This document shows, piece after piece, positions 8,826 through 24,946 of a DNA stretch of 64,000 bases. The translations under genes and the position numbers were made by a program. The stretch comes from Candidatus Omnitrophota bacterium (GTDB lineage: Bacteria; Omnitrophota; Gorgyraeia; Velamenicoccales; Velamenicoccaceae), in NCBI GenBank assembly GCA_016235185.1, contig JACRLT010000003.1:1-64000 (forward strand). The letters run 5' to 3'. Under the pieces are notes generated by a model. It ran no database searches and had not been told where the DNA came from. It saw only the letters and a program-made list of their open reading frames with translations. The first letter of the stretch is position 1; each line of letters starts with the position of its first letter.

Positions 8826-8861
8826 TGCCCGGTAGTGTAATCGGTAACACTCCAGAATTTT
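8826..8861 (+). pseudogene. 5' half of a tRNA gene (Gln/Glu-like), truncated in the anticodon loop
   Basis: TGCCCGG-TA-GTGT-loop-ACAC-T-CCAGA-ATTTT reproduces acceptor 5' strand, a perfect D arm and the 5' half of an anticodon arm. The sequence then changes to CCCGCC-rich palindromes (8862-8930), and the matching 3' half is absent. An intact tRNA-Gln follows at 8949. Confidence 0.6.
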
Positions 8862-8935
8862 CCCGCCAGCAAGCTTAGAAATGGGCGGGATCCCGCCAGG
8901 GGCTAATAATACAAGGGCGGGAGGATCTAAGCCTC
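8862..8935. repeat. Nested GC palindrome between tRNA fragment and tRNA-Gln
   Basis: Contains GCTTAGA...TCTAAGC as outer arms and alternating CCCGCC/GGGCGGG segments inside, able to form competing hairpins. It fills the gap where the 3' half of the truncated tRNA would be. Confidence 0.55.
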
Positions 8936-10692
8936 AATGAATTATTTTTGGGATGTCGTCCAAGCGGTAGGACACGAGAATTTGGATCTCGTTATTCTGG
9001 TTCGAGTCCAGACGTCCCAGCCAACCTTGACGCTCAGGCGAACTTCGAGCGTTCGATACAGTAACAAGCGCCTTGCAGGCATCCCCTGCAGGGCGTTCTT
9101 GGTTTTTAGGGGCTTTTTGGGCCTCCGGGGCAGGCAGGCTGCATGAAAGGCTGTCTACCGTGGGCTGGTCTATATACATCTTGATTTCGATGTAGTCCTT
9201 GTAAACTATAATTTCCTTGATCAGGGCCTGAATAAGAGCTTTCTGTGCTTCCGGAGGGGCCTGTTCGATATATTGCATGGCAAATTTAAGATTCGAGTGC
9301 AGGAACTGCCCTGAGTTTGCCGACATTTGAGCCACGCTCTTTTTTGCCTGTAGTCTGTCCAGCTCGTCTTCCAGCCCGACAATTTCCTCATCCAGCTTCG
9401 CCATCTTATCCTTATAAGTTTTTCCCTGCGATACTTTATTATCCATAGCCAGCTCAAGGAGCCTGTTTGCTTCCTGCTGGATTGCCACCAGCTTGTCCTG
9501 GATAGGCCTCATTAGCTTCTCGAGGCCCTCAAGCTTTATCTGGGAATCCCGGATCGCATCTCCTCGCCTTTACGATGATTTCCTGGTCATTGGATGCCCG
9601 CTTGAAGTAATCGATTAGGGCCTCGTCAAAGCCCCTGGCAGAGAATCGGGACACATCGCAACCTAATTTCTGCTTGGATCGGCCGCAGACATAGTAGAAG
9701 AATTTCTCGGCAGTATGGCCGTTGCCGCTTTCGCAGACATAATGGCTTCCGCATTCGCCGCACTTAAGGAGTCCGGCTAAGAGATAGATATACTCCGGAG
9801 TTCGCTTTATAAAACGATGACCGGGCAGTTTCGCGGTCAGGACCCGGTTTGCTTTTTCCCACAACTCTTCGTCTACGATGGCAGGATGGGTGCCTTTATG
9901 GATCTCATCGCCATATTTTATATAGCCCTTATGAAACGGATTCTTTATGATCCAGGCTATGCTTTGTTTGCGCCAGATTTTTTGGCTGGGAGTTTTTATG
10001 CCTCGGCGTATTAATTCCTGCGCGATATCATAAAGCGATTTATTATTAGCGGCCATCTCCCAGATAAAACGCAGCTTATTTCCTACTTCGGGATCAACGA
10101 TGATTTTGTGCGGCTGTCTTCCGTTTGGCAGAGGATCGCCGTTGGGTATTAATTTATAGCCAAAAGGAACGTTGCCGCCCACCCACTTGCCGAGCCTCAC
10201 CCTGGCTATGCAGGAGGCTTTCACACGCTCGCCTATGAGCTCTCGCTCAAAAGCTGACAAAATCCCCAGTATGCCGATTACTACCCTGCCTATGGCGGTT
10301 GAGCTGTCGAGATTTTCTCTTACCGATACAAAATCAATTTCCTTTTCCCTGAATAGATCAATAAGCCAGTAAAGGTCCCGGGTATTACGGGTCAAGCGGT
10401 CGAGCCGGAAGAAAATTATTCCGTCAAACAGCGCTTTTTTACGTACGTGGTCGATAATCATTTGAATGCCGGGCCGGTTGAGATCTTTGCCGGAGTAACC
10501 GTCGTCTATTACTACGCCTTTCTTTCCAATGTCAGCAAGTTCATACCCGAAAGCATCCAGCATGTTCTTACAGTGATAGGCCTGCGCGTCCAGGGTGGTG
10601 AAATCTCCTTGGGCCTGGTCATCAGTAGAGCAGCGGGTATAAATAACATATTTCTTTTTGTCTTGTTTCTTATTGAGTGTTATCACGGTCAC
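8934..10692 (-). pseudogene. Serine recombinase (resolvase + recombinase + zinc ribbon), frameshifted
   Basis: A large serine recombinase in two frames. The 5' part (10692 down to about 9560) has the resolvase N-terminus VIYTRCSTDDQ with catalytic Ser, the RLDRLTRN motif, a recombinase domain (VPFGYKLI...; SIAWIIKNPFHKGYI), and a CGECG...C zinc ribbon. Near residue 375 the frame is lost by one base; the continuation (GDAIRDSQIKLEGLEKL, then the coiled coil from MRPIQDKL) is open down to 8934. The C-terminus overlaps tRNA-Gln in antisense. A single indel, a sequencing error or a programmed shift cannot be told apart here. The upstream IR at 10797 may belong to the same element. Confidence 0.8.
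8949..9023 (+). tRNA. tRNA-Gln(TTG)
   Basis: Acceptor TGGGATG pairs with CGTCCCA. The D arm, the anticodon arm CGAGA-ATTTGGA-TCTCG (anticodon TTG), and a normal TTCGAGT T-loop are all present. Discriminator G at 9020 is followed by an encoded CCA (9021-9023). It is the left boundary of the accessory island; a serine recombinase gene reads toward and across it on the opposite strand. Confidence 0.93.
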
Positions 10693-10796
10693 TCCTTTTT
10701 ACACCACAACCCCTATAACAAAAGTGCATACAAGTCAAGCGATATCAATGGTTTTTACAAGTTCCGGGGGATAATGTAAAGCATCGGCACCTATGC

Positions 10797-10865
10797 ATAT
10801 ATATTGGGTTTTTTTACGATTTGTCACAGGCGCAGTGTGACAGTTTTAAGAAAAACCCAATATAC
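10797..10865. repeat. Nested inverted repeat upstream of the recombinase
   Basis: Outer arms ATATTGGGTTTTT / AAAAACCCAATAT enclose an inner TGTCAC / GTGACA hairpin. It lies about 105-170 bp before the recombinase start, so it may be a promoter/operator, a recombinase binding site or a terminator for the divergent small genes. Confidence 0.55.
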
Positions 10866-10866
10866 A

Positions 10867-10939
10867 CGCGGAGATCAGGGAGCGTCTGGCAAGGCTCGAG
10901 ACACTCGTAGAGCGGATAGATAAGAAAATCGGAAATTGA
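10867..10939 (+). pseudogene. C-terminal fragment of a small coiled-coil protein
   Basis: An open frame with no start encodes HAEIRERLARLETLVERIDK-KIGN and a stop. It has the heptad pattern of small phage coiled-coil proteins (XhlA-like). The 5' part is replaced by the inverted repeat at 10797-10865. The next gene begins 12 bp on with GGAGGTG. Confidence 0.45.
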
Positions 10940-10951
10940 GGAGGTGCAAAG

Positions 10952-11062
10952 ATGAAGGTATTGATAGCTTTTACTCTGGGGAATATCGTTGGAGGGTTAG
11001 GGATGTTTTTCTATCTGTGGCTGAAAGGCAAGGTGCAGGATGGCGGAAAGCGAAAGATTTAG
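10952..11062 (+). CDS. Small single-span membrane protein
   Basis: A 36-residue protein: MKVLIAFTLGNIVGGLGMFF followed by YLWLKGKVQDGGKRKI, one transmembrane helix with a basic tail. A strong GAGGAGGTG site precedes the ATG by 7 nt. Its 3' end overlaps the next start (11040) by 23 nt. The family is not recognised. The pair of short membrane genes next to a coiled-coil fragment is reminiscent of phage lysis or spanin-like cassettes, but no holin or endolysin was found. Confidence 0.6.
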   Translation: MKVLIAFTLGNIVGGLGMFFYLWLKGKVQDGGKRKI

Positions 11063-11372
11063 CCTGTTTAAATTCGCCGGGAGCTTCTTTCAGTTTTTGC
11101 CGTGGGTAAAGACCTTACGTTATGCAGCCGGAATTGCGCTCATCGGCTTTGTGGGCCTGACGATTTACCGGGCGTTCTTTATGCCTACGGAATCGACTAA
11201 ACAGGAAATGCATATCATTGCTCAATCCGGGTCGCAGATAACGGTGGATCAGAAAAAACAGGAGAAAAAAACCGGGATTGAGGTTAGTCCTTTCGTTGAG
11301 GGATATGGTTTCGTGGAATCCGACGAGCGCAAGGGCGCAGGCGCCAAGGCTGGAGTGCGGGTAGATTTTTAA
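11040..11372 (+). CDS. Hypothetical membrane protein (110 aa)
   Basis: A 110-residue protein with one membrane segment (about residues 25-47, KTLRYAAGIALIGFVGLTIYR) and a hydrophilic C-terminus rich in Gln, Lys and Gly (VDQKKQEKKTG...). Overlaps the preceding 36-residue gene, so the two are probably co-translated. The family is not recognised. Position inside the recombinase-marked island and the small-gene context suggest a mobile-element gene. Confidence 0.6.
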   Translation: MAESERFSLFKFAGSFFQFLPWVKTLRYAAGIALIGFVGLTIYRAFFMPTESTKQEMHIIAQSGSQITVDQKKQEKKTGIEVSPFVEGYGFVESDERKGAGAKAGVRVDF

Positions 11373-11419
11373 AGAAAGACCTTGCCAACGATTAGACCCT
11401 ATGGCCTACTTACGGCATT

Positions 11420-11608
11420 ATGAGTAAGTATCAATGGCCAGCTTCCCGCTTGGATGGAAAAGAGATGGCTTTGCTGTTTCACGAAAAGCAGAAGACCAAA
11501 AATAGCATCTGCGAATTACTACGCAGGGCCGTCCATATTGCCTATGGCGAGGTTGCTGGTGAAGAGAATGGTAGAAAGATAAGAAAGGAGGTTCGGGATG
11601 GCGACTAA
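11420..11608 (+). CDS. Small hypothetical protein (62 aa), possible ribbon-helix-helix fold
   Basis: A 62-residue protein (MSKYQWPASRLDGKEMALLF...SICELLRRAVHIAYGE). The pattern of a short strand, then KEMALLFHEKQKTKNSICELLRRAV, resembles helix-turn-helix pairs of CopG/Arc-type regulators. Its 3' end overlaps the ATG of the next, broken gene. No strong Shine-Dalgarno is visible. The function is not assigned; it could regulate the element. Confidence 0.5.
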   Translation: MSKYQWPASRLDGKEMALLFHEKQKTKNSICELLRRAVHIAYGEVAGEENGRKIRKEVRDGD

Positions 11609-11906
11609 ACAAAAGCAAAGGGGTAAGAAATAAAAGGCCGTAAAAGATAAGAAGATTTCAGCTGAAAGCTCTCCGTCGCCCAAGGAAGGCATTATTCTGC
11701 ATGCTTGGGCTTCGCGCAATGAGCTGATGATGACAGCCAAGGAGCGCGGGGTTAAGAACTTCCGTGTACTTAATAAGCAGGAGTTGACGGACGTCTTAAA
11801 GAATATCGGTGATCAGAAAGCTGTTGATGCGATCGTGGCAGGGGCCGTTGCCAGATGGAAGTCTGGCTGGGGCAAGGGAAAGGATAAGACCAAGGCAAAA
11901 GCATAA
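11598..11906 (+). pseudogene. Small SAP/Rho-N-like protein gene with in-frame stop
   Basis: A good AAAGGAGG site and ATG (11598) open a 102-codon frame interrupted by TAA at codon 12 (11631-11633). Beyond it the frame stays open and encodes ISAESSPSPKEGIILHAW, ERGVKNFRVLNKQELTDVLK (a SAP or Rho-N-like helix-extension-helix) and a Lys-rich tail. The stop follows MATKQKQRGKK. An internal start is possible but the gene looks inactivated. Confidence 0.6.
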
Positions 11907-11926
11907 GACACCGATATCCCATTGAA

Positions 11927-11962
11927 CCTCCGCTGGTTTTAATAACTGGCGGAGGTTTTTTG
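11927..11962 (+). terminator. Rho-independent terminator
   Basis: CCTCCGC...GCGGAGG with inner GGTT/AACT pairing followed by TTTTTT. Closes the small-gene block of the island. Confidence 0.85.
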
Positions 11963-12044
11963 TTTCCAAAAGCAATGCTTTGTGCTATAATCCATAATTA
12001 TGGGGATACGGGTAAAATACTAAGCAACAATCCAAGGAGGTATA

Positions 12045-12206
12045 AAGAAAACAACCATCGAGATTACGCAAGATCAGTATTTTTTCTTAAAAGAAAAAGC
12101 TCTTGCACTTCAGAAACAAAGTAAGAACGCATCCATTGTTTCTATTATCCGGGATTTGATTGAGAAAGATAGGCAAAATTGGACGAAGAAGAAATATGGC
12201 ACATAA
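12045..12206 (+). pseudogene. Ribbon-helix-helix (antitoxin-like) gene lacking a start codon
   Basis: An ideal AAGGAGG (12034-12040) is followed by a 53-codon frame KKTTIEITQDQYFFLKEKAL... that ends at TAA 12204-12206. It reads like a MetJ/Arc-type strand followed by two helices (LQKQSKNASIVSIIRDLIEK). The codon where a start is expected is AAG at 12045 (ATA at 12042); no ATG, GTG or TTG is present. The start was lost by point mutation, or a rare start is used. Confidence 0.5.
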
Positions 12207-12235
12207 ATTACAAATGAAACTTAATCAGGACTAAG

Positions 12236-13564
12236 ATGAAAATTGTTCTTATCATGCCACGAGGAGCGCTTTACCGATATAAGGATGGTGTATTCAAGAA
12301 ACCAATTCGTTATGCGCCACTTACATTAACGACATTGGCTTCTTTAATTCCATCAGAGATTAATGCTGAAGTTGAAATAATCGATGAAGGTGTAGAAGAA
12401 ATTCCTAATGATTTTCAGGCTGATTTAGTAGGAATTACTGCAATTACTGGGACTGCAATACGTGCATATGCCATTGCGGATAATATACGAAATAAAAGAA
12501 TCCCTGTTGTTTTAGGAGGCGTCCATGCGACCTTAATGTCTCAAGAGGCAATGCAGCACGCGGATAGTGTTGTTACTGGTTTTGCTGAGGAATCTTGGCC
12601 ACAACTTTTGCGCGATTTTTTAAATAATAAAATGAAAAAACTTTATACCCAGTCTCCAAATTTATCGTTAGTTAACCTCCCTATACCACGAAGGGAACTT
12701 TTTAAGCAGCGAAAGAAAGGATTTGTAAGTATTGATACTGTCCAGGCTACTCGTGGATGTACGAATCTTTGTGATTTTTGTATAGTTCCCGTTGCATGGG
12801 GAAAGAGGATGTATTTTCGGCCAATAAAGGAAGTAATCGAAGAACTTCAACAGATTGAAAGTCAAAATATACTTTTTGTTGATGTCAGCCCAATCGAAGA
12901 CAAAAAATACGCCAAAGAACTTTATAGCGCCATGATTCCCCTTAAGAAGAGATGGGTTAGTCCCGCAACAATAAAGATGGCTGATGATGGAGAATTACTA
13001 AAGGTAGCAGCGAAAAGCGGCTGCAGAGGGTTGTTAATTGGCTTTGAATCGGTTTCGCAAGCAACTCTAAAACAGATGGGCAAGGCTTTTAATTACGCCG
13101 ATAAATACAAAACACAAGTAAAGAAATTACACGACTGCGGCATTGCGATCCAGGCTTGTTTTGTTTTCGGGTTTGATACCGATGATAAGACAGTTTTTGA
13201 AAAGACTATAGATTTGGTTAATAAGTTAAATTTAGACCTTCCTCGATTCACTGCATATACACCTTTTCCAGGAACACCAATTTTTAAAAAACTCAAATCT
13301 GAAAATCGCATTATTGAAGAAAACTGGTCATTTTACGACGCGCAGCATGTTGTATTTAGGCCTGCTTTGATGAGTCCCGAAGAATTACAGGCAGGTTTAT
13401 TTTGGGCTTGGAAGCAAAGCTATAAATCAAGCTCAATTTTTAAGCGTCTTTTAGGAGCTCGTTGTTTATTACCGTATATGATTCCTGCGAACATAGCTTA
13501 TAGATTCTATGCAAACAATTTGGCCAATTATAGCAAAGCAATGATTGCAGATTGCTTATGGTAA
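12236..13564 (+). CDS. B12-binding-type radical SAM protein 1
   Basis: A 442-residue protein with an N-terminal cobalamin-binding-like Rossmann region (about 1-135, with VVLGGVHATLM and GFAEESWPQLL) and a radical SAM core starting at the CTNLCDFC cluster motif near residue 177. The C-terminus has the FGFDTDDKTVF and PFPGTPIFKKL signatures of class B methylases and related enzymes. It starts the cluster of co-oriented biosynthetic genes. The next gene is a paralogue (GLLIGFES, FVFGYD.DD, PFPGTPLY). The substrate is unknown; class B enzymes methylate unactivated carbons or rearrange lipids and natural products. The region looks AT-rich. Confidence 0.85.
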   Translation: MKIVLIMPRGALYRYKDGVFKKPIRYAPLTLTTLASLIPSEINAEVEIIDEGVEEIPNDFQADLVGITAITGTAIRAYAIADNIRNKRIPVVLGGVHATLMSQEAMQHADSVVTGFAEESWPQLLRDFLNNKMKKLYTQSPNLSLVNLPIPRRELFKQRKKGFVSIDTVQATRGCTNLCDFCIVPVAWGKRMYFRPIKEVIEELQQIESQNILFVDVSPIEDKKYAKELYSAMIPLKKRWVSPATIKMADDGELLKVAAKSGCRGLLIGFESVSQATLKQMGKAFNYADKYKTQVKKLHDCGIAIQACFVFGFDTDDKTVFEKTIDLVNKLNLDLPRFTAYTPFPGTPIFKKLKSENRIIEENWSFYDAQHVVFRPALMSPEELQAGLFWAWKQSYKSSSIFKRLLGARCLLPYMIPANIAYRFYANNLANYSKAMIADCLW

Positions 13565-13580
13565 CAATAAGGAGTTATTT

Positions 13581-14915
13581 TTGAAAGTAACTTTTATTAT
13601 GCCATCAGTAGGGAGAAAGGACAATGAGCCTTATGTAGACTCATGGAAGATGGAGCCTTTGGCTTTGGCTACTTTAGCTGGGTTAACTCCACCGGATATT
13701 GAGATTGATTTCCTTGATGATAGGATAGAAACAATTGACTATAATCGTGCAACTGATTTGGTGGCGATAAATGTCGAGACTTATACAGCCCAAAGGGCAT
13801 ATGAAATTTCTAAGCGGTATCGTCAATTAGGCAAACAAGTTGTTTTAGGTGGTTTCCACCCTACACTTATACCCAATGAGGCAATTGAATTTGCCGATGC
13901 AATAGTTATAGGTGAGGTAGAGAATATTTGGACTCAGGTTATTGAGGATTCTCAAGAGAGAAAACTAAAGAAGTACTACAAATCTGATGTGAGACCTGTG
14001 CTAAATGGAGTAAAACCAAGACGGGAAATATTCAAGCATAAGCAATATCTGCCCATCTCATTAGTCGAATCTGGCAGAGGGTGTAAATTTGCATGTAATT
14101 TTTGTTCTATAAGCAGTTTTTTTAATCAATCGTACATTGCCCGTCCAATTCAAGAGATTGTCAAAGAGATAGAGTCTTTAAACAAAAAGTTTATTTTTTT
14201 AGTCGATGACAATATCAATGTGGATAGTAAAAGGTCAAAGGAGCTTTTCAGGGCTCTTATACCTTTGCGTATTTCATGGGCTAGCCAAGGCAGCATCAAT
14301 ATAGCTGAAGATGAAGAGCTCCTCTGTTTAATGAAAAAGAGTGGTTGTTTTGGCCTTTTAATTGGATTCGAATCATTAAGCAAAAATAATCTTAATCAGA
14401 TGGGAAAAAATTGGAATGGTGGTTTAGAACGGTATATGCAGGCGCTGAAGAAATTCCGGGACCATGGAATCGGAATCTACGCTACCTTTGTTTTTGGCTA
14501 CGACTATGACGATATAAACTCATTTGATACAACTTTAGATTTTGCAATTAAAAATAAATTTTTTCTTGCGGCATTTAACCATCTAGTTCCATTTCCCGGA
14601 ACACCTTTATATAATCAACTAAAAAAAGAAGGTCGATTACTGTTTGATAATTGGTGGCTAGATCCTAAATATAGATTTGGCGATGTTGCCTTTATGCCTA
14701 AACAAATGAGTCCAGAGGAACTATCACGAGGTTGCATGGAAGCGCGAAGAAAATTCTATCGGTTTAGTTCTATTTTAAGAAGATTTTCTGATTTTAAGGC
14801 AAATTGTAGGAATCCGTATAATGCAGTACAATTCCTATCATTAAATCTTTTTTCGCAAAAAGAGATTATTAAAAGACAAGGATTGCCGCTTGGAAGGGAG
14901 GCGGCTGTTCAATAA
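13581..14915 (+). CDS. B12-binding-type radical SAM protein 2
   Basis: A 444-residue paralogue of the gene upstream. The N-terminal Rossmann-like domain has VVLGGFHPTLIPNEA; the radical SAM motif is CKFACNFC (near residue 172); the C-terminus has GIYATFVFGYDYDD and PFPGTPLYNQL. TTG 13581 is taken as start: AAGGAG lies 6 nt before it, and the N-terminus KVTFIMPSVGRK then aligns with KIVLIMPRGAL of the first enzyme. Two adjacent B12-type enzymes suggest successive methylations or C-C bond steps on one substrate, by inference. Confidence 0.85.
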   Translation: MKVTFIMPSVGRKDNEPYVDSWKMEPLALATLAGLTPPDIEIDFLDDRIETIDYNRATDLVAINVETYTAQRAYEISKRYRQLGKQVVLGGFHPTLIPNEAIEFADAIVIGEVENIWTQVIEDSQERKLKKYYKSDVRPVLNGVKPRREIFKHKQYLPISLVESGRGCKFACNFCSISSFFNQSYIARPIQEIVKEIESLNKKFIFLVDDNINVDSKRSKELFRALIPLRISWASQGSINIAEDEELLCLMKKSGCFGLLIGFESLSKNNLNQMGKNWNGGLERYMQALKKFRDHGIGIYATFVFGYDYDDINSFDTTLDFAIKNKFFLAAFNHLVPFPGTPLYNQLKKEGRLLFDNWWLDPKYRFGDVAFMPKQMSPEELSRGCMEARRKFYRFSSILRRFSDFKANCRNPYNAVQFLSLNLFSQKEIIKRQGLPLGREAAVQ

Positions 14916-14916
14916 G

Positions 14917-16029
14917 ATGGGTAGATTCAACTTTAAAATAGCTCAGGATTCGGATGATTGTGCGATCCGGGAAGTTTTCCATGATACTCCTATGGATGGC
15001 AAGATAGGCGTTGCCTTTAAACGGGAGCCAAGTTATTTTACTGCCACAAAGGTTGGGAACGAATTTCACCAGACTATAATAGCTACAGATGAAAAGACAA
15101 ACGATATTGTTGGATTAGGGAGCCGTTCAATAAAACCCTGCTACATAAATGGCGAGGTTGCAAATATTGGTTATTTAAGTAGTCTGAGAATAAAAAACGA
15201 TTATCGTAATAATATCTTATTAGCTCGGGGCTACGAATATCTTCATAAATTACATCAGGACAAAAAAGCGTCTATTTATATCACCTCAATAATAGAAGAT
15301 AACAATTACGCTATCGGTTTATTGACTAGCAAAAGAGCGGGTTTACCCCGCTATCTTGATATGGGATTATATTGCACAACAGCAATTGGATTATCGCGAA
15401 AGAAGCATGACATAAGCGGTAATATTAAGGTTGTCAAAGGTTCGTATAAAAACATTGATGCTATTGTTGAGTACTTAAACAGAAATGGAAAAAATAAACA
15501 ATTCTATCCATATTATACAAGGGAATCTTTTCTTTCAAATAACGGCATATTAAAAGATTTTCAGATTGATAATTTTTATATAGCACTTAGAAATAATAAT
15601 GTTGTCGGCACAATAGCAACGTGGTATCAAGGCAATTTCAAACAAACCATCATTACGGGATATAACGGACTTTTACGCTTCATTAAACCTTTTTATAACT
15701 TAGGTGCTACGGTAATAGGGTTGCCCAAGTTACCTAGATCAAATACGCAGTTAAAATTTTTGTATACCGGATTTATCGCTATTGATTCTAATGATATGGA
15801 GATTTTTCGTGCATTATTGCGCACAATATATAACGATGCAGTGAATTCTAATTATGACTATCTTTTAGTTGGTTTACACGAAAGCGATCCTTTGTTGAGA
15901 GCTATTAAAGAAGATTATCGCTTTATTAAGTACAGTAGTAGGGTTTTTGTGGTTTGTTGGGATGACGGTGTAGATTTGTTTAATAAGTTAGATAACCGGA
16001 TCCCTTATTTGGAATTGGCAACTTTGTAG
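14917..16029 (+). CDS. GNAT-like acyltransferase (two-domain)
   Basis: A 370-residue protein starting one base after the preceding stop. The first half reads like an N-acetyltransferase fold (FKIAQDSDDCAIREVFHD; DIVGLGSRSIKPCYINGE; YLSSLRIKNDYRNNILLARGYEYL, the acetyl-CoA pyrophosphate-loop region being the RNNILLARG part). The second half looks like a second, degenerate GNAT copy (NVVGTIATWYQGNFKQT; TGFIAIDSNDMEIFRALLRTIYNDAV). An alternative TTG start at 14890 has a slightly better Shine-Dalgarno distance. Role by context: acyl transfer in the biosynthetic cluster; donor and acceptor are unknown. Confidence 0.6.
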   Translation: MGRFNFKIAQDSDDCAIREVFHDTPMDGKIGVAFKREPSYFTATKVGNEFHQTIIATDEKTNDIVGLGSRSIKPCYINGEVANIGYLSSLRIKNDYRNNILLARGYEYLHKLHQDKKASIYITSIIEDNNYAIGLLTSKRAGLPRYLDMGLYCTTAIGLSRKKHDISGNIKVVKGSYKNIDAIVEYLNRNGKNKQFYPYYTRESFLSNNGILKDFQIDNFYIALRNNNVVGTIATWYQGNFKQTIITGYNGLLRFIKPFYNLGATVIGLPKLPRSNTQLKFLYTGFIAIDSNDMEIFRALLRTIYNDAVNSNYDYLLVGLHESDPLLRAIKEDYRFIKYSSRVFVVCWDDGVDLFNKLDNRIPYLELATL

Positions 16030-16050
16030 CTTCAATTAAGGAGGTAAGTC

Positions 16051-16791
16051 TTGTCCCGTCTTAAAGGTGATATTTTAGAAATCTCGCAGCTTTCCATTAA
16101 CCAAAAAAACGAAATGTTCAATCTTTTTTGTTTGTACTTCAATCGTGTTGAAAGAACCCAATTTGATATGGATTTACAAGAAAAAAATTGGGTAATAATT
16201 TTAAAGGACTATATTTCTGGGCAAATTAAGGGGTTTTCAACGCAAATGATTATGGAGAGCGAAGTCGATGGGAGTGTTATTAAAGCAATTTTCTCCGGGG
16301 ATACAATTATTCATAAGGATTTCTGGGGTGAATCAACGCTTGCTAAGGTTTGGTTAAATTTTGTTTGTTCTTTAGCACGTCTCTATAAAGAGACTAAGTT
16401 ATATTGGTTTCTTGTAGCTATGGGCTATAAGACTTATCGTTTTCTCCCTGTATATTTCAAAGAATTTTACCCCTGTTACAATAAACTGACCCCTGAATTC
16501 GAACAGGTTGTTTTAGATTGTTTTGCGTCTTACAAATATCCCTTAGAATATAATAAAACGACAGGCATAATTAAACATTTATCAGCGAAAGAGAGTTTAA
16601 AGCCCGGAGTGGCTGACATTACTGCTGCAAAATTGCATAATCCGCACATTGACTTTTTTATGAAGAAAAATCCTGGTTATCCGTATGGTGATGAATTGGC
16701 CTGTTTGACTCTTATAAATGAAGAAAATCTAAAACCGGTTGCTTATCGTGTTATGGGAATAAAGGAAGCATATTCTACAAAAAGCATATAA
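16051..16791 (+). CDS. GNAT-like hypothetical protein
   Basis: A 246-residue protein, TTG start at 16051 set by a perfect AAGGAGG 8 nt upstream. It has a GNAT-like arrangement (NWVIILKDYISGQIKGFSTQM; AIFSGDTIIHKDFWGESTLAK; WFLVAMGYKTYRFLPVYFKEF). The FWGESTLAKVWLNF helix sits where acyl-CoA binds in the fold. The family is not firmly recognised. The stop overlaps the next start by 1 nt (TAATG), showing translational coupling with the PLP enzyme. Confidence 0.55.
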   Translation: MSRLKGDILEISQLSINQKNEMFNLFCLYFNRVERTQFDMDLQEKNWVIILKDYISGQIKGFSTQMIMESEVDGSVIKAIFSGDTIIHKDFWGESTLAKVWLNFVCSLARLYKETKLYWFLVAMGYKTYRFLPVYFKEFYPCYNKLTPEFEQVVLDCFASYKYPLEYNKTTGIIKHLSAKESLKPGVADITAAKLHNPHIDFFMKKNPGYPYGDELACLTLINEENLKPVAYRVMGIKEAYSTKSI

Positions 16792-17768
16792 TGAAATACA
16801 CTGTTAACACACCTAATAAATATATAAATTCGATAGATAACGTTCCCCGGTTATCGCTGGGAGAATTTCCTACTCCTATAAAGAAAATTCATTTACATAA
16901 TGGCTGTTATTTTTGGTTTAAAGACGACGGTTTAAGCTCACCTTTATATGGGGGTAATAAAGTTCGCAAGCTGGAATATCTTTTAGCTGAGGCGAAACAG
17001 AGCCATGCTACAAGGCTAATTACCTATGGTGATTATGGTTCTCATAATTTGCTTGCCTGCGCTCTTTTTGGCAAAAAACTAGGATTTAATTTAGACATCA
17101 TAACATTTCCCTCTCCTGATGGATATAATACTGAAAACAGTTTATCAATTTATGAAAAACTAAACGCAAACATTATAACAACCAAAAATATGATTACCGC
17201 ATCAATTCACGCTTTAAAACTCAGAAAAAAAGGAAGTTATCTAATGCCTCTCGGGAGCTCCTCTCCTCTATCTACTTTGGGTTATGTAAAAGCAGGATTA
17301 GAATTAAGCGCACAGATTCAAGAAGGTATTTTACCGCCCCCCAAAAAGATTTATGTTGCATTAGGTACTACTGGGACAGTTGCTGGATTACTTATTGGTT
17401 TAACCTTAGCTGAAGTGCCGACTTGCGTTGTGGCAGTACGAACCATAGAACCCATTATTGCTAATAGATTCCGTCTCTCTAAATTAGTTTTAGGGGCTCT
17501 AAAGTGTTTACAGTTGCCCAAATCATTTTATAAAGCGACAATGAACCGCCTTGAGTATATTGATGGTAATTGGTTAGGTAAAGGGTATGGTTATTCAACC
17601 CCAGAATCTCAAAAGGCTGTGGAATTGATGGTAAAAATTGATGTAGATTTAGAGCCTGTGTTTACAGGTAAAACAATGGCAGCAATGCTTAATCGATTGT
17701 CAGAATATCCTAGTGGAGAATTATTATTTTGGAATACTCACTCTAGAATCAAAGAAAGTCAATTATAG
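16791..17768 (+). CDS. PLP-dependent D-cysteine desulfhydrase/ACC deaminase family protein
   Basis: A 325-residue fold-type II PLP enzyme. The lysine motif YGGNKVRKLEYLLAEA (about residues 50-65), the YGDYGSHNLLACA segment (usually GAVQSNHAR in this family) and the glycine loop ALGTTGTVAGLLIGL support the family. It may deaminate or desulfhydrate a D-amino acid, or make a beta-replacement product for the pathway. The altered GDYGSHN motif suggests the substrate differs from D-cysteine. Overlaps its neighbours by about 1-3 nt on the 5' side, and the next gene begins 2 nt after its stop. Confidence 0.8.
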   Translation: MKYTVNTPNKYINSIDNVPRLSLGEFPTPIKKIHLHNGCYFWFKDDGLSSPLYGGNKVRKLEYLLAEAKQSHATRLITYGDYGSHNLLACALFGKKLGFNLDIITFPSPDGYNTENSLSIYEKLNANIITTKNMITASIHALKLRKKGSYLMPLGSSSPLSTLGYVKAGLELSAQIQEGILPPPKKIYVALGTTGTVAGLLIGLTLAEVPTCVVAVRTIEPIIANRFRLSKLVLGALKCLQLPKSFYKATMNRLEYIDGNWLGKGYGYSTPESQKAVELMVKIDVDLEPVFTGKTMAAMLNRLSEYPSGELLFWNTHSRIKESQL

Positions 17769-17770
17769 CG

Positions 17771-18952
17771 ATGTTAACTCATAGGGATAGAGATATTCAT
17801 TTGTTAAACCGCTTAGTAGGCTTGGGGGCCAAGAAGATATGTTCTGTCAGCAATCAACAAGCGCAGAAGTTGATTCGTGAAGAAATTGCACTTAGGATAC
17901 CCGGTAAATATGCTTATTCGGAAGAAAAATTCCCAGTGAAAGTATGTAGCTGTAGTCAGGCAAGGGTATGTTTCGATAATAAACACTGCAACGCATATTT
18001 ACTTGATTATACTGGTTCGCAAGGCACTAGCGTAAAGGGTGAGCTTATTTATTTAGGTAGTGGTGCTGAAAGAGATTTTAAGAATAACGATGTACAAGGT
18101 AAGATTGTTGCCTGTAGGTACGGTTTAGCTAACCATCGGATTCTACAGGTCGAGCGAGCTAAAAAATATAATGCAGCAGGAATAATCATTATTTCTGGAC
18201 ATAATGACCTTTTCCAGATAGGGACTGGTTATCCTGAGTTTAAAGAACCATCTGTTATACCTGCGCTTTCTATCACTAAGAATGATTGGTCATCTTTATC
18301 TAAATATGTCAGAAAGCAGATAACGCTGGAATATCAACAAAGGATAGAATCTGGGCAAGCAAGGAATCTGATTTTCGACCTTTTGCATGACGAAATAAAA
18401 GAATACATCGTCATTGGCACACACTTTGATAGCTGGAACAGCGGAGCTCAGGATAATAGCATTGGAGTAGTAATGCTTGTTGCCTTAGCGGAATCTGTTG
18501 CAAGAAGGGAGTATAAGAAAAATATACGTTTAATATTCTTTGATGCTGAAGAAATTGGAATGGTGGGTTCGAAATGGCATGTTAATCACACTGACACTAA
18601 CAACTATATTGCATATATTAATTTGGAGATGCCCATACCTTGTAAAAACACAAATATGAGGACAATCTTATTTTCTAATGAGCCGCATATACGTAATTCG
18701 GTTTCTTTCACACAATTATTGTGTAATCGATTTTTACCTGTGCCTTTAAATTGGTTTTATTGGATAAGCAATTCTTTATTTCCTTCTGATGTAGATAGTT
18801 TTTTCCAAAAAGGTATTCCCTGCATGACTACATATTGCAGTAATATCTACTATCATACTTCAGAAGATACTGTGGATAAGCTAAATTTAAAAATGTACCC
18901 AGTGGTTTTATCGATGATAGAAAAATTTATCAGAAAGCTAGAGAGTTTCTAA
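17771..18952 (+). CDS. M28-family metallopeptidase with PA-like insert
   Basis: A 393-residue zinc aminopeptidase/carboxypeptidase-like protein. Metal ligands: His in GTHFDSWNSGAQDNS (His and Asp), Glu-Glu in FFDAEEIGMVG, and the final His in YYHTSEDT. A PA-like segment (GELIYLGSG...GKIVACRYG...AKKYNAAGIIIISG) precedes the catalytic region. No signal peptide is visible (MLTHRDRDIHLLNRL), so it is probably cytoplasmic. In biosynthetic clusters such enzymes trim or condense aminoacyl groups (glutaminyl-cyclase-type M28 members are known), so it may be a tailoring enzyme. Confidence 0.85.
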   Translation: MLTHRDRDIHLLNRLVGLGAKKICSVSNQQAQKLIREEIALRIPGKYAYSEEKFPVKVCSCSQARVCFDNKHCNAYLLDYTGSQGTSVKGELIYLGSGAERDFKNNDVQGKIVACRYGLANHRILQVERAKKYNAAGIIIISGHNDLFQIGTGYPEFKEPSVIPALSITKNDWSSLSKYVRKQITLEYQQRIESGQARNLIFDLLHDEIKEYIVIGTHFDSWNSGAQDNSIGVVMLVALAESVARREYKKNIRLIFFDAEEIGMVGSKWHVNHTDTNNYIAYINLEMPIPCKNTNMRTILFSNEPHIRNSVSFTQLLCNRFLPVPLNWFYWISNSLFPSDVDSFFQKGIPCMTTYCSNIYYHTSEDTVDKLNLKMYPVVLSMIEKFIRKLESF

Positions 18953-20244
18953 ATGGTTATTAACAAGACAACATCATATTGTTGTGAATGTCGCCAGAGC
19001 CATAATGCAACTATTGAACAAAATGGTGAGCATATTGATTTTCATGTTGATTGCCCTAAGAGAGTAAAGTCTTCTCGGATTTCTTCTAATGCCAGTATTT
19101 TTTTAGGGATTAGGAAGAAATATTCTAGGGATATTTTGAGCCCCTCAAGCCATAATGGTAAAAAGTGGTTCCACTTAGTAGAAATAACTGATGATTGTAA
19201 TTTTAAGTGTCCGGTATGCTATGTAAATGCTGGCAGCAGCTCCTCGAAGACTTTTTTATCAGTAGAATCTGTTTTAGAGAAAGCAGCCTATGTAAAGAAT
19301 AGTGGCGGTAAGATTGTTACGCTTACTGGTGGTGAGCCGACGCTGCACTCTGGTTTACCCACAATGGTTAAGAAAATTTCAGATATGGGATTGAAAGTCG
19401 AAATTGCTACAAATGGTTTACAAATCGCAGAAGATTCTAACTATGCAAGAATTCTTAAGAAAAGTGGATTGCGGCGGGCATGGTTACAGTTAGACACTTT
19501 TGATGAAGATACACATAAGAAAATGCGAGGTAATAACTTTATAGAGCAGAAAAAAAAGGCAACTGAGCACATTATTTCTTCTGGGTTGCGCTTAGGCATT
19601 ATTGTTACTGTAACCAGTCTGAATATTAATGATATCGATAGTATCTTGGATTATGCTCTCAAATTAGGATCGAAACTAGATTTTATTGTTTTCCAGGTAG
19701 CTGTGCCTGCTGGGAGATACCAGTTACCACAAGATACACTGGTAGATCGAGAGGCAGTGATAAAAAGGCTAATGGATTCTAGGATACTTAATATGGTCCG
19801 ATCTTTAGACTGTTTCTGGCCTATGCCAGCTTTTAGGCCATGGCAATTAGAAGTGCATCCGGACTGTGCAGCTGTTCTATTTCTTCTTGTTGAAGGAGAA
19901 ACATGGCAAGGTTTTATCGGCGGTTAAGCACAAACAATATGAATCCTAACTTTTTTACCAGAAATATAGTGCCTATTTTTTATGCTCTAAGAGAAACTGA
20001 CCTTACAAAAATAATAAATCTGATACATTTTTTTTATGGGTTTATTACCGGAAAAGGCAAAAAAAGTATGGTGGTTATATCAATTGATAGTTTTTTAGGA
20101 GCTGAATATCAAGATGAACAAAGGCTCTCTAGATGTGCCAATTCTCATGTTACTCCCCAAGGTTTAATATCTCCCTGTATTTACAACTATCCTGATAAAA
20201 GAAGACAGGATTCGCGTAAAAATTTGGAGGGACAATGGGCCTAA
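18953..20244 (+). pseudogene. Radical SAM protein resembling the MJ0619/tetraether-synthase family, frameshifted
   Basis: Frame one (18953-19927) has an N-terminal Cys pair region (TTSYCCECRQSHNATIEQNG; VDCPKRVKS) and the SAM-cluster motif CNFKCPVC in EITDDCNFKCPVCYVNAG, then TLTGGEPTLHSGLP, ATNGL and HPDCAAV. Frame two (about 19903-20244) continues with VPIFYALRETDLTK and a C-terminal cysteine patch (CANSHVTPQGLISPC). The layout of an N-terminal Cys-rich knuckle, HPDC and a C-terminal Cys patch is that of MJ0619/Tes-type enzymes, which join lipid tails in archaea. A one-base shift near 19900 splits it. It may be a pseudogene, an assembly error or two peptides. Confidence 0.65.
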
Positions 20245-21326
20245 TTACTAATTTACGATATAATTTTATTAGTGCTGCATTAACCCTGCCCACATTTAAG
20301 AAATTTAAAGAAACGGCAGTTAAGTTACTTTTAGGGCATAATAAGATTATTGGCTGGGAAGGCTCATTGCCGGTTCGTAGTTTAATTATACCTGCTGAGT
20401 ATAGCCAATCCTTTATCAAATCTGCAGCCCGTCTGTATAATTCAGGACGATATGATTTACATTATCCGGGATTAGTCACTCTCTCTATTACTGCCAAATG
20501 TGATTGTAGTTGTTTCCATTGTACTGCCTATGGGCAAGAAGGAAAAGAACTCTCAACAGAGCAATGGATTGATATTATTCGACAATCAGTTGATTTGGGT
20601 GTTTTTAGCTTTGCTTTTACCGGTGGAGAGCCTCTCTTGCGAGATGACCTTTCAGAGATAATAAAAGCCGTGGACAAAAAGAGCGCCATCTGCGTCATCT
20701 ATACTAACGGATCTAAATTAAAGGAGCAGGCAAAAGAATTGTATAAAGCAGGTTTAAAGCGAGTTCTCATAAGTATAGATTTTTCGGATGAGAAATCACA
20801 TGATGAGCACCGTAGACATAGCGGATTGATGAGAAAGGCGCTCGCAGGGTTGGAAGAAGCACAGCGTTTAGGTATGCTAGTTGGTTTCTCAACCTTTATT
20901 TCACCCGAACGTCTCTATTCAGGAACAGTTGAGAAAATATTCAAACTTGGGATTGAAAAAAAAGTTAAAGAAATCGCAGTGTTTGATGCATTGCCTTCGG
21001 GAAGGCTAGAAAATCAAACAGACCTTAAAAATCCGCCACCGAAATATAAATTAGACCTGCGTAAATTTATGGAGTCTTGGTGGAACAAAAAAAATGCTCC
21101 GGGTATTTGGTGGTATGGTCATTTTCGGTCCTTCCAAGCCTGTGGCTGTCCAGGTGGTACATCAATGTTTAATATCTCTGCCGATGGTGAATTCCGGCCT
21201 TGCGACTTTTGTAAAGTTAGTGTTGGTTCAATAACTAAAAATGATTTATTGACGCTGTGGATTAAGCTGAACAATCTGGCAAAAGAACAACGAAGTAAGG
21301 GCAATGAATGTTGGCTGTTACGGTAA
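20235..21326 (+). CDS. Radical SAM protein with SPASM-like C-terminus
   Basis: A 363-residue radical SAM enzyme. The cluster motif CDCSCFHC sits near residue 89 (SITAKCDCSCFHCTAYG), with FTGGEPLLRDDL and YTNGS after it. The C-terminus has further cysteines (CGCPGGTSMFNISADGEFRPCDFCK), typical of SPASM or twitch domains that hold extra Fe-S clusters. A GGAGGG site precedes ATG 20235, which overlaps the previous frame by 10 nt. SPASM enzymes often modify peptides; others act on small molecules. It belongs to the same operon-like run. No precursor peptide gene was found nearby. Confidence 0.85.
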   Translation: MGLITNLRYNFISAALTLPTFKKFKETAVKLLLGHNKIIGWEGSLPVRSLIIPAEYSQSFIKSAARLYNSGRYDLHYPGLVTLSITAKCDCSCFHCTAYGQEGKELSTEQWIDIIRQSVDLGVFSFAFTGGEPLLRDDLSEIIKAVDKKSAICVIYTNGSKLKEQAKELYKAGLKRVLISIDFSDEKSHDEHRRHSGLMRKALAGLEEAQRLGMLVGFSTFISPERLYSGTVEKIFKLGIEKKVKEIAVFDALPSGRLENQTDLKNPPPKYKLDLRKFMESWWNKKNAPGIWWYGHFRSFQACGCPGGTSMFNISADGEFRPCDFCKVSVGSITKNDLLTLWIKLNNLAKEQRSKGNECWLLR

Positions 21327-21346
21327 TGAAAGGCTTTTGAACAATT

Positions 21347-23140
21347 ATGCAAAATTTATTAATATTAAGAAGAATTAAATTATTATTTGCGAATTTCTCT
21401 TGGATGATATTGTGTTTCAAACGTAGCTATTATTTTCATATAGCAACATCTAATGTCGAAAATGCGCAGAAAAAAGTCTTATTACGTATTCTAAAGAAAA
21501 ATAGCGATACAGCGTTTGGTAAAGAGCACAAATTGGTTTCGATAACTAATGTCGTAGATTTCCAGTCCAGGGTAGAAGTTAATCCATACGATTTTTATAA
21601 AGGATATATAGATTCAATCGCTCAGGGTGAAAAAGCAATATTAACATCTGATCCCATAGTGTTATTGGAACCTTCGAGTGGGTCAACTTCTAGCTCAAAA
21701 TACATTCCCTATACTCTAAGTTTGTATGAAGAATTTAAGAATGGACTATCATCATGGATTTACGATCTATTTACAAAAAGAAATCATCTTCTTTCGGGCA
21801 GCGCCTATTGGTCAATTTCACCAATAACGAAAATAAATAAGACAAATTCAAAAATTCCTATTGGTTTTGGAAACGATGCTAGTTATTTTGGAAGAATCGA
21901 ACAAAGGTTGTTAAATACTATTTTTGCTGTGCCATCGATAGTAAGTGAAATCGAAGATGTAGAGACATTCAGATATGTTACCCTGCGTTTTCTTTTATGT
22001 GATAAGCACCTTGCTTTTATTTCAATTTGGAATCCTTCTTTCTTGACTCTTTTATTAGAACCTCTTGAAGAATGGTCTCTCCAGCTAATAAGAGACATAG
22101 AAAATGGAACCCTAACTCCTCCTGGCAGTGTTAATTCAGATCTTAAGCGGGAGTTTCTTAAAAAATGTCTTAGAGATAAGCAAAGGGCAAGAGAGTTACA
22201 AGATATCATTGTTCATTGGGATGTGAAAAACTCAGCTTTTGTTGATAAGAAGACTATTTACGAGAAAATTTGGCCAAATTTAACTTTAATCAGCTGTTGG
22301 GCTGACAGTCATGCTGCCCCGCAAATCAAAGAATTAAAGGTGTTATTTCCCAATATAGAAATTCAACCCAAAGGTTTACTTGCTACTGAAGGCATTGTGT
22401 CATTTCCGTTAATCGGAGAAAAAGGAGCTGCGCTCAGTATCCGTTCGCATTTTTTTGAGTTTATAGAGATTAAGAATGAGTTTAGGAATAGTAGCAACGC
22501 TCTTAAGACAAAATTAGCGCATCAATTAGAAAAAGAAAAGCTCTATTCTGTTGTGGTGACTACGTGTGGTGGATTATATAGGTACAAGTTGCAAGATATT
22601 ATAAAAGTTGTCGGCTTCAAAAACCAATGTCCATTGATTCAATTTATAAGCAAGGAGTCTAATATATCTGACTTAGTTGGCGAGAAGCTAAATGAATTTC
22701 ATATCTCAACAATTTTGAATGATAGCTTTAATAAATATTCACTCAAGCCAAGCTTCTTTTTATTGGCGCCAGAAAGAAGCATAAAAAAAGGAGCTTATTT
22801 TTATGCCTTATTTATCGAATTACAAGAAAATAATATTATAGATGATGATTCGCTTTCTTTATTGGCAGAAGAGCTGGAAAAAAGATTGGAAGAGAATTAT
22901 CACTATGCCCATTGTATAAATTTAGGGCAACTCTTATCAGCTAAGCTTTTTGTAATTAAGAATAATAGCCAGGCAGCATATATTTATGTAAACATCTGTC
23001 GAAAAGCTGGTCAAAAAATAGGTAATATTAAACCCTCTGTTCTTAGTTCTAGGGTTGGTTGGTCTGAATTTCTTGAAGGAAGATTTATTGGAGAATTAAA
23101 TGTTCAAAATATACACTCCTGTATTAACAAAGATTCGTAA
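21347..23140 (+). CDS. GH3-family acyl-adenylating amide synthetase
   Basis: A 597-residue member of the GH3 (auxin-responsive) fold, an ATP-dependent adenylating enzyme that joins a carboxylate to an amine. Seen: the N-terminal helices with NVENAQKKVLLRILKKNSDTAFGKEH, the nucleotide loop LEPSSGSTSSSKYIPYT (near residue 107), the GLLATEGIVSFPL strand, and VVTTCGGLYRYKLQDIIKVVGF. Plant members conjugate jasmonate or auxin with amino acids; bacterial ones are mostly uncharacterised. Here it would form the amide bond of the cluster product, with the amine perhaps supplied through the PLP enzyme or released by the M28 peptidase. Its 3' end overlaps the TPR gene by 41 nt. Confidence 0.85.
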   Translation: MQNLLILRRIKLLFANFSWMILCFKRSYYFHIATSNVENAQKKVLLRILKKNSDTAFGKEHKLVSITNVVDFQSRVEVNPYDFYKGYIDSIAQGEKAILTSDPIVLLEPSSGSTSSSKYIPYTLSLYEEFKNGLSSWIYDLFTKRNHLLSGSAYWSISPITKINKTNSKIPIGFGNDASYFGRIEQRLLNTIFAVPSIVSEIEDVETFRYVTLRFLLCDKHLAFISIWNPSFLTLLLEPLEEWSLQLIRDIENGTLTPPGSVNSDLKREFLKKCLRDKQRARELQDIIVHWDVKNSAFVDKKTIYEKIWPNLTLISCWADSHAAPQIKELKVLFPNIEIQPKGLLATEGIVSFPLIGEKGAALSIRSHFFEFIEIKNEFRNSSNALKTKLAHQLEKEKLYSVVVTTCGGLYRYKLQDIIKVVGFKNQCPLIQFISKESNISDLVGEKLNEFHISTILNDSFNKYSLKPSFFLLAPERSIKKGAYFYALFIELQENNIIDDDSLSLLAEELEKRLEENYHYAHCINLGQLLSAKLFVIKNNSQAAYIYVNICRKAGQKIGNIKPSVLSSRVGWSEFLEGRFIGELNVQNIHSCINKDS

Positions 23141-24008
23141 AAAATCGTCAATCAAGACCTATTTGATTTTAGTTTTGATGTGGATTGTCATTTGCCCTTG
23201 TGATCTTTATGCTGCGAGTTTAAAAGAGCTGCATGAAAAAGCATATCTATCCACTTTAGAGGAATTAAGAAAATACGCCGACTCATTATCAAACAAATCC
23301 GAAAGCCATTATATACTTGGATTGGGGTATTTAAAAAATCACTTGGAACAGAAAGCGTCTAAAGAATTTGAGGAAGTTCTGAGACTAGAACCCGGTAATA
23401 TAAATGCTTTATGGGGGCAAGCTGAGGTATTACGGCGAAATAATGAATATGAGAAATCTATAAAAATACTCGATGAAGTTCTAAGGAAAAACCCAGAGCA
23501 TGCCCCCGCGTTAATTACTAAATCCTATACGCAGCTTCTGTTAGGCGATTTACAACAAGCAATTAAAACAGCTGCGGTAGTTGAAAGATTGCAAGAAACA
23601 GGTAAACCTGTCGATAAGCCGAATTTGGCACGCGCCTATCTTATTATTGCTACGGCTAAGATTCGAATAGTAGAAAAGAGTATATTTTTAGGGAAATTGC
23701 AGGCTCTTACGATTAAAGGTTACATAATGAAAGCTGCAGAAATAAATCCGGATGCTGCTGAGGTACGTTTCGCATTGGGAAATTTTTACCTCTTTGCTCC
23801 CGGGTTCTGGGGCGGCAATGTTGATTTAGCTATTGAAGAGTTCAAAAAAGCATTAAACAAAGATCCACAATTCATGGATGCCTATGTTCGATTAGCTCAA
23901 ACCTATCGTAAGAAAAATGATTTACCCCAGCTTAATTATTATTTAGATAAAATCAAGAAATTAGATCCCAATAATAAACTCGCTAAAGAACTGGGGTATT
24001 TAAAGTAA
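23100..24008 (+). CDS. TPR-repeat protein, probably exported
   Basis: A 302-residue protein with an N-terminal hydrophobic segment (residues about 19-40, TYLILVLMWIVICPCDLYAA; a Cys-containing signal peptide or anchor) and tetratricopeptide repeats (KASKEFEEVLRLEPGNINAL; KSIKILDEVLRKNPEHAPAL; LAIEEFKKALNKDPQFMDAY). Start ATG 23100 lies inside the end of the GH3 gene with GGAG upstream. The last member of the biosynthetic run; probably a scaffold, no catalytic motif seen. Confidence 0.75.
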   Translation: MFKIYTPVLTKIRKKSSIKTYLILVLMWIVICPCDLYAASLKELHEKAYLSTLEELRKYADSLSNKSESHYILGLGYLKNHLEQKASKEFEEVLRLEPGNINALWGQAEVLRRNNEYEKSIKILDEVLRKNPEHAPALITKSYTQLLLGDLQQAIKTAAVVERLQETGKPVDKPNLARAYLIIATAKIRIVEKSIFLGKLQALTIKGYIMKAAEINPDAAEVRFALGNFYLFAPGFWGGNVDLAIEEFKKALNKDPQFMDAYVRLAQTYRKKNDLPQLNYYLDKIKKLDPNNKLAKELGYLK

Positions 24009-24092
24009 CGAGAAAGGGGGTGATATATTTTTATTGATTTCTTTAGAAATGTCTCAGATAATATATGAATACAAAACTCAGGGAGGTGGAAG

Positions 24093-24426
24093 ATGGAGAG
24101 CAAATCGTTAGCACCTATTAAATTTTTTTGTGGTTTGATTTGTATCTATCATGTGGTTGAGGGATTGATTGCAACAATTTCTGGTGAAATGATTTGCAAT
24201 CGCCTTTGGCGTTTTAATGGGGTTTGCTGCTATAAATCCCGTTAAAAACAAGGCTATCATTTACGGTGGCATTGTGTTTTTTGCAGTAAGAGCTTTCGAT
24301 AGAATTGTGTTTGCAAATGTGCTTCGGGAAGCCTTCGATGTTTCCACTGGAAGAAACTTAATTAGCCTTGTTTTTGTGATTATTATGTTGCTTGGTTTGC
24401 TAATTTTTAAACCCGAAGAGGCCTAA
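24093..24426 (+). pseudogene. Small membrane protein gene, frameshifted
   Basis: GGGAGGTGG precedes ATG 24093 and a frame MESKSLAPIKFFCGLICIYHVVEG... that becomes unreadable near 24200. From there the +1-related frame (AIAFGVLMGFAAINPVKNKAIIYGGIVFFAVRAFDR...) continues to 24426. Together they make a roughly 110-residue protein with three or four hydrophobic helices. One indel separates the halves. The family is not recognised. A downstream start at 24217 could still give a 69-residue product. Confidence 0.55.
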
Positions 24427-24478
24427 TTTCAAAACTCTATGCTGAACTGGACAAAAAGGGTCGGGGAAACTATAGCTA

Positions 24479-24946
24479 TTATTTTGACAATAGGCGTGTA
24501 ATTTCGTTTCGGCGTTCTTTCTCGGTTTTTAGGCGGGAGATTTGCAAAAGCCGTCTGCCGTTGAAGATTTTTAGCTTCGCTTCATTGGTGCAGGATTTCA
24601 TATCTGCGACAAAATCCGAAGGCAGTGTATTGACTATTTTTAGCAGGTGTGCTAACTTGGCTTCTGAGATATTTAGCTCTTTACGGGTTTTTGCCCAGGT
24701 TATTCTTTCCGGGTCGCTATTGATGAAAGCCTGGATTTTTAGGCCCTCATAGATGGTATTTTTGATAATTCGCTTTGCCCGCTGAGGTTTCTCAGGTAAA
24801 GGATCGCCAAAACGGATTAATTGTTTCCTGCCCCTACGGGTGTATATTTTCACAACCATATGCACTATATGGAGTTGTGAAGTTCGTCTGGCGTCCAGTT
24901 CGGGCAGCCAGTTCGCCGAAGTTCGATCATCTATAGTTTTTATCAT
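24479..24946 (-). CDS. HTH protein resembling the C-terminal part of serine recombinases (remnant?)
   Basis: A 155-residue frame. KIYTRRGRKQLIRFGD and the helix-turn-helix-like WAKTRKELNISEAKLAHLLKIVNTLP resemble the region following the catalytic domains in some site-specific recombinases (RRGGRK...; an HTH ending in LAPDI). No catalytic domain is found beside it. The annotated ATG coincides with a CATG shared with the divergent gene; an internal start at MVVKIYT is also possible. It may mark the right edge of the accessory island that begins at tRNA-Gln. Confidence 0.5.
   Translation of the reverse strand: MIKTIDDRTSANWLPELDARRTSQLHIVHMVVKIYTRRGRKQLIRFGDPLPEKPQRAKRIIKNTIYEGLKIQAFINSDPERITWAKTRKELNISEAKLAHLLKIVNTLPSDFVADMKSCTNEAKLKIFNGRRLLQISRLKTEKERRNEITRLLSK

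Follow-up and report, generated by a model that had tools for sequence, protein, structure and literature searches.

The closest described counterpart of a bacterial GH3 enzyme encoded within a lipid gene set is the planctomycete OlsH/OlsI pathway for ornithine lipids, in which OlsH forms N-acyl ornithine from free fatty acids with the consumption of ATP (PMC12493201). In eukaryotic N-myristoyltransferases (NMT), the carboxylate of the last residue acts as the catalytic base (PMC4964394, PMC7048800); the last residue was also suggested as the base in Eis. The B12-dependent radical SAM enzymes BchE, HpnR and PhpK share an N-terminal B12-binding region that is followed by a radical SAM domain with a CX3CX2C motif. 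Tes (GDGT-MAS), another radical SAM enzyme, is distinguished by a rubredoxin-type CX2CX20CX2H motif and by N-terminal auxiliary-cluster cysteines (PMC9433317). The open-access literature, to which our search extended, contained no description of a cluster of GH3 and radical SAM genes, nor of bacterial NMT-like enzymes.

Genes with likeness to each of these systems lie together in the window, that is the whole stretch of 64,000 nucleotides analysed from a Candidatus Omnitrophota bacterium (GCA_016235185.1, contig JACRLT010000003.1). By ORF reading they form a co-oriented series on the plus strand at 12236-23140, in which the genes mostly touch or overlap and all are open at the coordinates given below. 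The initial annotation had described a co-oriented run of twelve kb with four radical SAM enzymes. The co-orientation and the overlaps are confirmed, but the run measures 10.9 kb and belongs to a larger unit that extends beyond it (a genomic island at about 8861-24922); all four radical SAM genes are present, but the third is frame-shifted and only the two B12 types belong to the conserved core, so that the number four is not a defining feature. Pfam families were matched by the genes starting at 12236, 13545, 16791, 17771, 18953, 20235 and 21347, while the genes at 14890 and 16051 had no Pfam family match in the window scan and their GNAT folds were recognised from structure. NCBIfam returned superfamily-level matches only for the cluster proteins, all far under every equivalog cut-off. 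We interpret the locus as a horizontally moving cluster whose product would be an N-acyl amide altered by B12-dependent radical SAM enzymes, and probably an amino lipid; we judge the chances of this prediction being correct to be about even.

The core consists of B12-type radical SAM enzymes of type 1 and type 2, GNAT1, GNAT2 and GH3, which were found together in eight genomes including that of the window. The seven further genomes are six Omnitrophota and one MAG (L040) deposited as Nitrospirota; counted among them is L046, whose contig starts at GNAT2 and runs in the order GNAT2, GH3, GNAT1, so that any radical SAM genes would lie off the contig. Among 147 related genomes, GNAT1 is present in three (the window, G146 and G098), and the cluster-type GH3 coincides with it exactly, occurring in the same three; the same-genus and same-family genomes carry neither GNAT1 nor a GH3 of the window type. 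A GNAT1 profile search added four more Omnitrophota (7/384 in total), and scanning of GTDB contigs with a three-member GNAT1 profile added L040, whereas a contig scan with the window GNAT1 alone as query gave no match. No further copy was detected in the nine genomes searched from the phylum of L040. Reading of the loci by ORFs and tblastn revealed a complete order in six of them: the type 1 enzyme, one or two of type 2, GNAT1, GNAT2, and then GH3 either directly or past accessory genes. In G098 the genes are distributed over two contigs and keep this order through GNAT2, the link to GH3 falling between the contigs. The divergence of GNAT1, GNAT2 and GH3 is correlated over the eight loci (Mantel r 0.86, 0.65 and 0.80, with 118, 445 and 57 of 40,320 permutations as high). 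Co-occurrence in other genomes, the test that the initial annotation had set beforehand, was thus observed in seven of them, and together with the correlated divergence it rules out a chance assembly of the gene set.

The fixed core order, the overlapping genes and the correlated divergence lead us to read the cluster as a pathway. They speak against the idea that membrane-repair and fatty-acid-scavenging genes are kept together by mobility and have no dedicated product, as does the separate clade formed by the cluster GH3s (see below). This idea might draw on the Aas-type fusion found beside some clusters, which recycles lysophospholipids, and on the mosaic exchange of genes: the type 1 enzymes of L030 (11659-12948) and L045 (5925-7214) are 81% identical, whereas the GNATs and GH3 of these loci are only about 36% identical. 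Judged by such comparisons, the clusters are mosaics in which genes appear to have been swapped between clusters; the type 1 enzymes of G098_a and L044_a, at 72% identity, are another such case. Overall, we regard an assemblage for lipid maintenance as very improbable and retain the amide pathway.

The cluster resides on a mobile island that is inserted into a tRNA-Gln gene. At the left edge of the island, 35 nt of the native tRNA-Gln 5' half (8826..8860, plus strand) are kept, cut at the anticodon loop; they match the intact tRNA-Gln of G001, a genome of the same genus (L063 8966-9038), through CCAGAATTT and then diverge. The acquired segment (about 8861-24922) is absent from G001 and G003, in which a few hundred bases separate its flanks, and has a GC content of 38.7% compared to 46.9% elsewhere in the window. 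It brings a replacement tRNA-Gln (UUG), identified by ARAGORN at 8949..9023 on the plus strand, whose sequence, apart from the anticodon region, is unlike that of the native gene. A large serine recombinase is encoded on the minus strand in split form (8934..10692): 9529-10692 contains Resolvase, Recombinase and Zn_ribbon_recom domains, and 8934-9512 is the probable C-terminal part, as judged from coiled-coil-like sequence alone. Since the native tRNA-Gln 3' half was searched for in the window and not found, the right edge was set where homology resumes. A large serine recombinase also adjoins the cluster in L045. The initial annotation had not included the island. The association of a serine recombinase with a tRNA anticodon loop seems unusual. 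The 1.4-kb gap between recombinase and cluster contains a small membrane-type ORF (11040-11372) that is not common to other clusters.

The first two genes of the cluster encode the B12-type radical SAM enzymes. Type 1 (12236..13564, plus strand; CTNLCDFC) exceeds the Pfam cut-offs for both Radical_SAM and B12-binding, the latter with 40.5 against 32.1 bits; type 2 (13545..14915, plus strand; CKFACNFC) exceeds that for Radical_SAM, carries DUF4070 and stays below for B12-binding (28.6 bits). Both B12-type enzymes of the initial annotation are confirmed, with a B12-binding match over the Pfam cut-off in the first gene only. The CX3CX2C motif is conserved in all 19 cluster copies, and the type 1 enzymes form one clade with a member in every cluster whose 5' end is present, one per cluster except in G098, which has a second; type 2 is found in one to three copies in other clusters. 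This architecture is shared with BchE, HpnR and PhpK, from which the cluster enzymes differ by their two own types that are fixed in the cluster. Their scores of 88-96 bits, compared to 481 bits for BchE, indicate likeness at superfamily level only, which weakens the case for a lipid amide. B12-type radical SAM enzymes are abundant in general, and a role of those in the cluster as carbon modifiers is speculative.

The genes at 14890..16029 (GNAT1) and 16051..16791 (GNAT2), both on the plus strand, gave AF2 models with pLDDT of 87.6 and 90.2, and their GNAT folds, as identified by Foldseek, agree with the two GNAT-like proteins of the initial annotation. GNAT1 is a tandem GNAT acyltransferase with an NMT-like predicted fold. 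The 36 best solved matches of its model were all N-myristoyltransferases (TM about 0.6 over the full length), the best of them with E 7e-16 and TM 0.62, and rank 37 was a mycobacterial tandem GNAT (E 8.5e-14). Pfam provided a weak GNAT hint for GNAT1 and nothing more, and the PDB yielded nothing useful when searched with the GNAT1 and GNAT2 sequences. The eight GNAT1 copies, with pairwise identities of 24-57%, all end in the same alignment column (consensus PYLExATL; ...PYLELATL-COOH in the window), unlike GNAT2 and GH3, whose C-termini are ragged in the alignments of the eight clusters. Such a fixed end is as predicted for a catalytic C-terminal carboxylate and suggests that GNAT1 may use one. 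Like eukaryotic N-myristoyltransferases, GNAT1 combines a predicted tandem GNAT fold over the full length with a fixed C-terminus; unlike them, it is set among radical SAM and GH3 genes, has a sequence identity to NMT of only 8-13%, and did not match the Pfam NMT models at E up to 1 in any of its eight members. The low identity and the lack of a Pfam NMT match count against a lipid amide, as do the predicted nature of the model, the other tandem GNAT close behind and the proposal of a last-residue base for Eis too. As a member of its family, GNAT1 would be expected to catalyze N-acylation. GNAT2, conserved in the eight clusters, consists of one GNAT fold and a C-terminal part of its own; its Foldseek matches were GNATs with TMq of about 0.40, and it resembles acetyltransferases such as AAC(2').

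The last core gene encodes a GH3-family acyl-acid amido synthetase (21347..23140, plus strand). Its GH3, GH3_M and GH3_C domains are all over the Pfam cut-offs (GH3 178.2 bits against 23.6; the further domains 72.0 and 23.8 bits), as proposed initially, and the columns SG, TE and RY..D of the adenylation and nucleotide-binding motifs are invariant in the eight copies. Membership in this family gives good grounds for inferring the ATP-dependent joining of an acid to an amine. The cluster GH3s make up one side of a 100/100 branch, so the phylogeny that had been suggested as a check places them in one clade, separate from 15 other Omnitrophota GH3s. The latter were considered as members of the cluster group and ruled out by the tree. 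A separate GH3 group (L005-L021), about 32% identical to the window GH3, is found in many Omnitrophota. A TPR protein (23100-24008) overlaps the end of the GH3 gene and is absent from the ORF lists of other clusters. The resemblance to the OlsH/OlsI pathway lies in a bacterial GH3 within a putative lipid gene set, but the window protein scores 49.9 bits in the OlsH equivalog NF052613 (cut-off 620), radical SAM genes are part of the window cluster and none is mentioned for OlsH (PMC12493201), and a counterpart of OlsI was not identified in the window cluster.

The nearest solved relative of the window GH3 is the plant enzyme JAR1, to which it aligns over the full length (E 4e-36), and jasmonate, auxin and benzoates are the substrates of its closest relatives of solved structure. 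GH3 enzymes also join aromatic acids and hormones, so that a fatty acyl group is not a given, which is a further point against a lipid amide. The main rival reading is accordingly a small-molecule pathway for a signal, a siderophore-like compound or an antibiotic amide, in which GH3 would couple an amino acid with a non-fatty acid, while acetylation would fall to the GNATs and methylation to the B12-type radical SAM enzymes. The acetyltransferase likeness of GNAT2 would fit such a pathway, the PLP enzyme could provide a building block derived from an amino acid, and the patchy spread together with the mobile island is typical of secondary metabolism. On the other hand, the clusters showed no dedicated exporter, regulator, carrier protein or NRPS/PKS, their neighbours include some of lipid type (Aas, PAP2, the small membrane protein), and the predicted GNAT1 structure is nearest to NMT. 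We consider a small-molecule amide possible, although doubtful.

Between GNAT2 and GH3 the window cluster contains accessory genes: the PLP enzyme, the M28 peptidase and the two other radical SAM enzymes. The PLP enzyme (16791..17768, plus strand; PALP 83 bits) belongs to the D-cysteine desulfhydrase/ACC deaminase superfamily and scores 119.9 bits in the D-cysteine desulfhydrase family TIGR01275, below the cut-off of 289.4 bits; it carries the GDYGSHN motif noted initially and the PLP-lysine motif GGNKVRKLEY, and occurs in the window and L043. Its GSHN reads GSNH (GSNHA) in the L043 relative, at residues that are usually near the cofactor. The M28 peptidase with a PA domain (17771..18952, plus strand; Peptidase_M28 90.5 bits), also correctly called at first, and the radical SAM/SPASM enzyme (20235..21326, plus strand; Radical_SAM and SPASM over cut-off) are found in the window and L030, with identities of 53% and 52%, respectively. 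The M28 protein has NLE in the window and NLD in L030 at an expected metal-ligand position (Asp to Glu).

The SPASM enzyme has NCBIfam matches to RiPP maturases, and with an aminopeptidase family (M28) for trimming and an NMT-like GNAT1 that could acylate a peptide amine, a RiPP pathway might be imagined in which radical SAM/SPASM enzymes alter a peptide. Such a pathway would need a precursor, but none of 101 candidate short ORFs was common to any two clusters, no gene was recognised as a transporter, and the SPASM enzyme and the M28 peptidase are accessory; we consider it improbable and return to the amide lipid.

The third radical SAM enzyme (18953..20244, plus strand), of the Tes/TrsS group, is present in three of the eight clusters (window, L030 and L044). 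The closest solved relative of the intact L030 orthologue, a single 434-aa ORF at L030:4629-5930, is Tes (7tol; E 1e-19, the next 1.5e-8), but the scores in the Tes family NF045702 are 101 bits for the window part and 110.8 for L030, against a cut-off of 450. Like Tes, it has the radical SAM core, CX2C-X20-C and conserved C-terminal cysteines; unlike Tes, it lacks the His at the fourth rubredoxin position and the N-terminal auxiliary-cluster cysteines, and it is broken in the window. On these features it is best regarded as a relative of Tes and not as a Tes, and its presence in only three clusters, without Tes features, lessens its weight for a lipid product. An Aas-type fusion (MFS, PlsC-type acyltransferase, AMP ligase) lies beside three of the eight clusters (L032, L040 and L046), that of L040 scoring 1337 bits (cut-off 1221) as acyl-ACP-phospholipid O-acyltransferase, but such fusions are common housekeeping genes. 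A small membrane protein is encoded in L030, L031/L032, L040, L044 and L046. Further neighbours are PAP2, an amidohydrolase and a hexapeptide-type protein in L043, the last two of which also occur in L045 as read from its ORFs; L030 has an alpha/beta hydrolase and a further GNAT. Some of these neighbours, the Aas-type acyltransferase and the small membrane protein, point to a link with lipids.

An N-acyl amide or modified lipid, as already proposed in the initial annotation, is thus the best-supported product class, because of the core in eight genomes, the GH3 motifs and the alignment with JAR1, the OlsH precedent, the NMT-like GNAT1, the Aas neighbours, a third radical SAM enzyme nearest to Tes and the lack of a conserved short ORF resembling a RiPP precursor among the clusters. 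In the proposed pathway, GH3 would use ATP to adenylate a free carboxylic acid and then link this acid to an amine, in the manner of OlsH and the plant GH3s. GNAT1 would N-acylate the same building block or the product from long-chain acyl-CoA or acyl-ACP, with its C-terminal carboxylate as base, and GNAT2 might assist or perform a second acylation. The two types of B12-type radical SAM enzymes would install C-methyl groups or modify carbon in another way. The Aas-type fusion, in clusters that have it, could supply acyl-ACP and O-acylate; likewise, where they occur, the Tes-like enzyme could couple carbons that are not activated, and the small membrane protein would be located at the membrane.

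A more far-reaching version, which we think unlikely, is a new class of bacterial membrane amide lipids made by GH3 and an NMT-like enzyme, with methyl branches from radical SAM enzymes, the genes being carried between uncultured phyla on a mobile cassette; in some clusters, Tes-like chain coupling would lead to a membrane-spanning amide lipid. If the amide pathway is correct, a GH3 synthetase, an NMT-like GNAT and cobalamin-dependent radical SAM enzymes would be joined in one pathway to an undescribed product. To our knowledge, GNATs of the NMT-like kind are so far known from eukaryotes, and GNAT1 might provide a bacterial relative for asking about the origin of the eukaryotic NMT fold. The cluster might also serve as a gene marker for lipids yet to be described in anoxic habitats of uncultured bacteria. 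The set of L040 is compact and intact (Aas, two radical SAM enzymes, two GNATs, GH3 and the small membrane protein in about 10 kb), which makes the pathway directly testable.

In the window itself, two genes are broken and the pathway copy is therefore probably impaired. The Tes-like gene is distributed over two ORFs (18953-19927 and 19903-20244), and compared to L030 about 28 nt are missing near 19,895, where the frames change; its reading as one ORF was ruled out by this frame break relative to the 434-aa orthologue. The gene of the DUF4345-like small membrane protein (24093..24426, plus strand), detected by tblastn with several relatives, has its N-terminal part in another frame and lacks an internal segment, while it is intact in five other genomes. 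Both breaks look like deletions and not like single-base errors, so the copy is probably decaying, although an assembly error may be the source of both. The island carries at its right end a minus-strand ORF without family (24479-24946), which may be a remnant of a recombinase.
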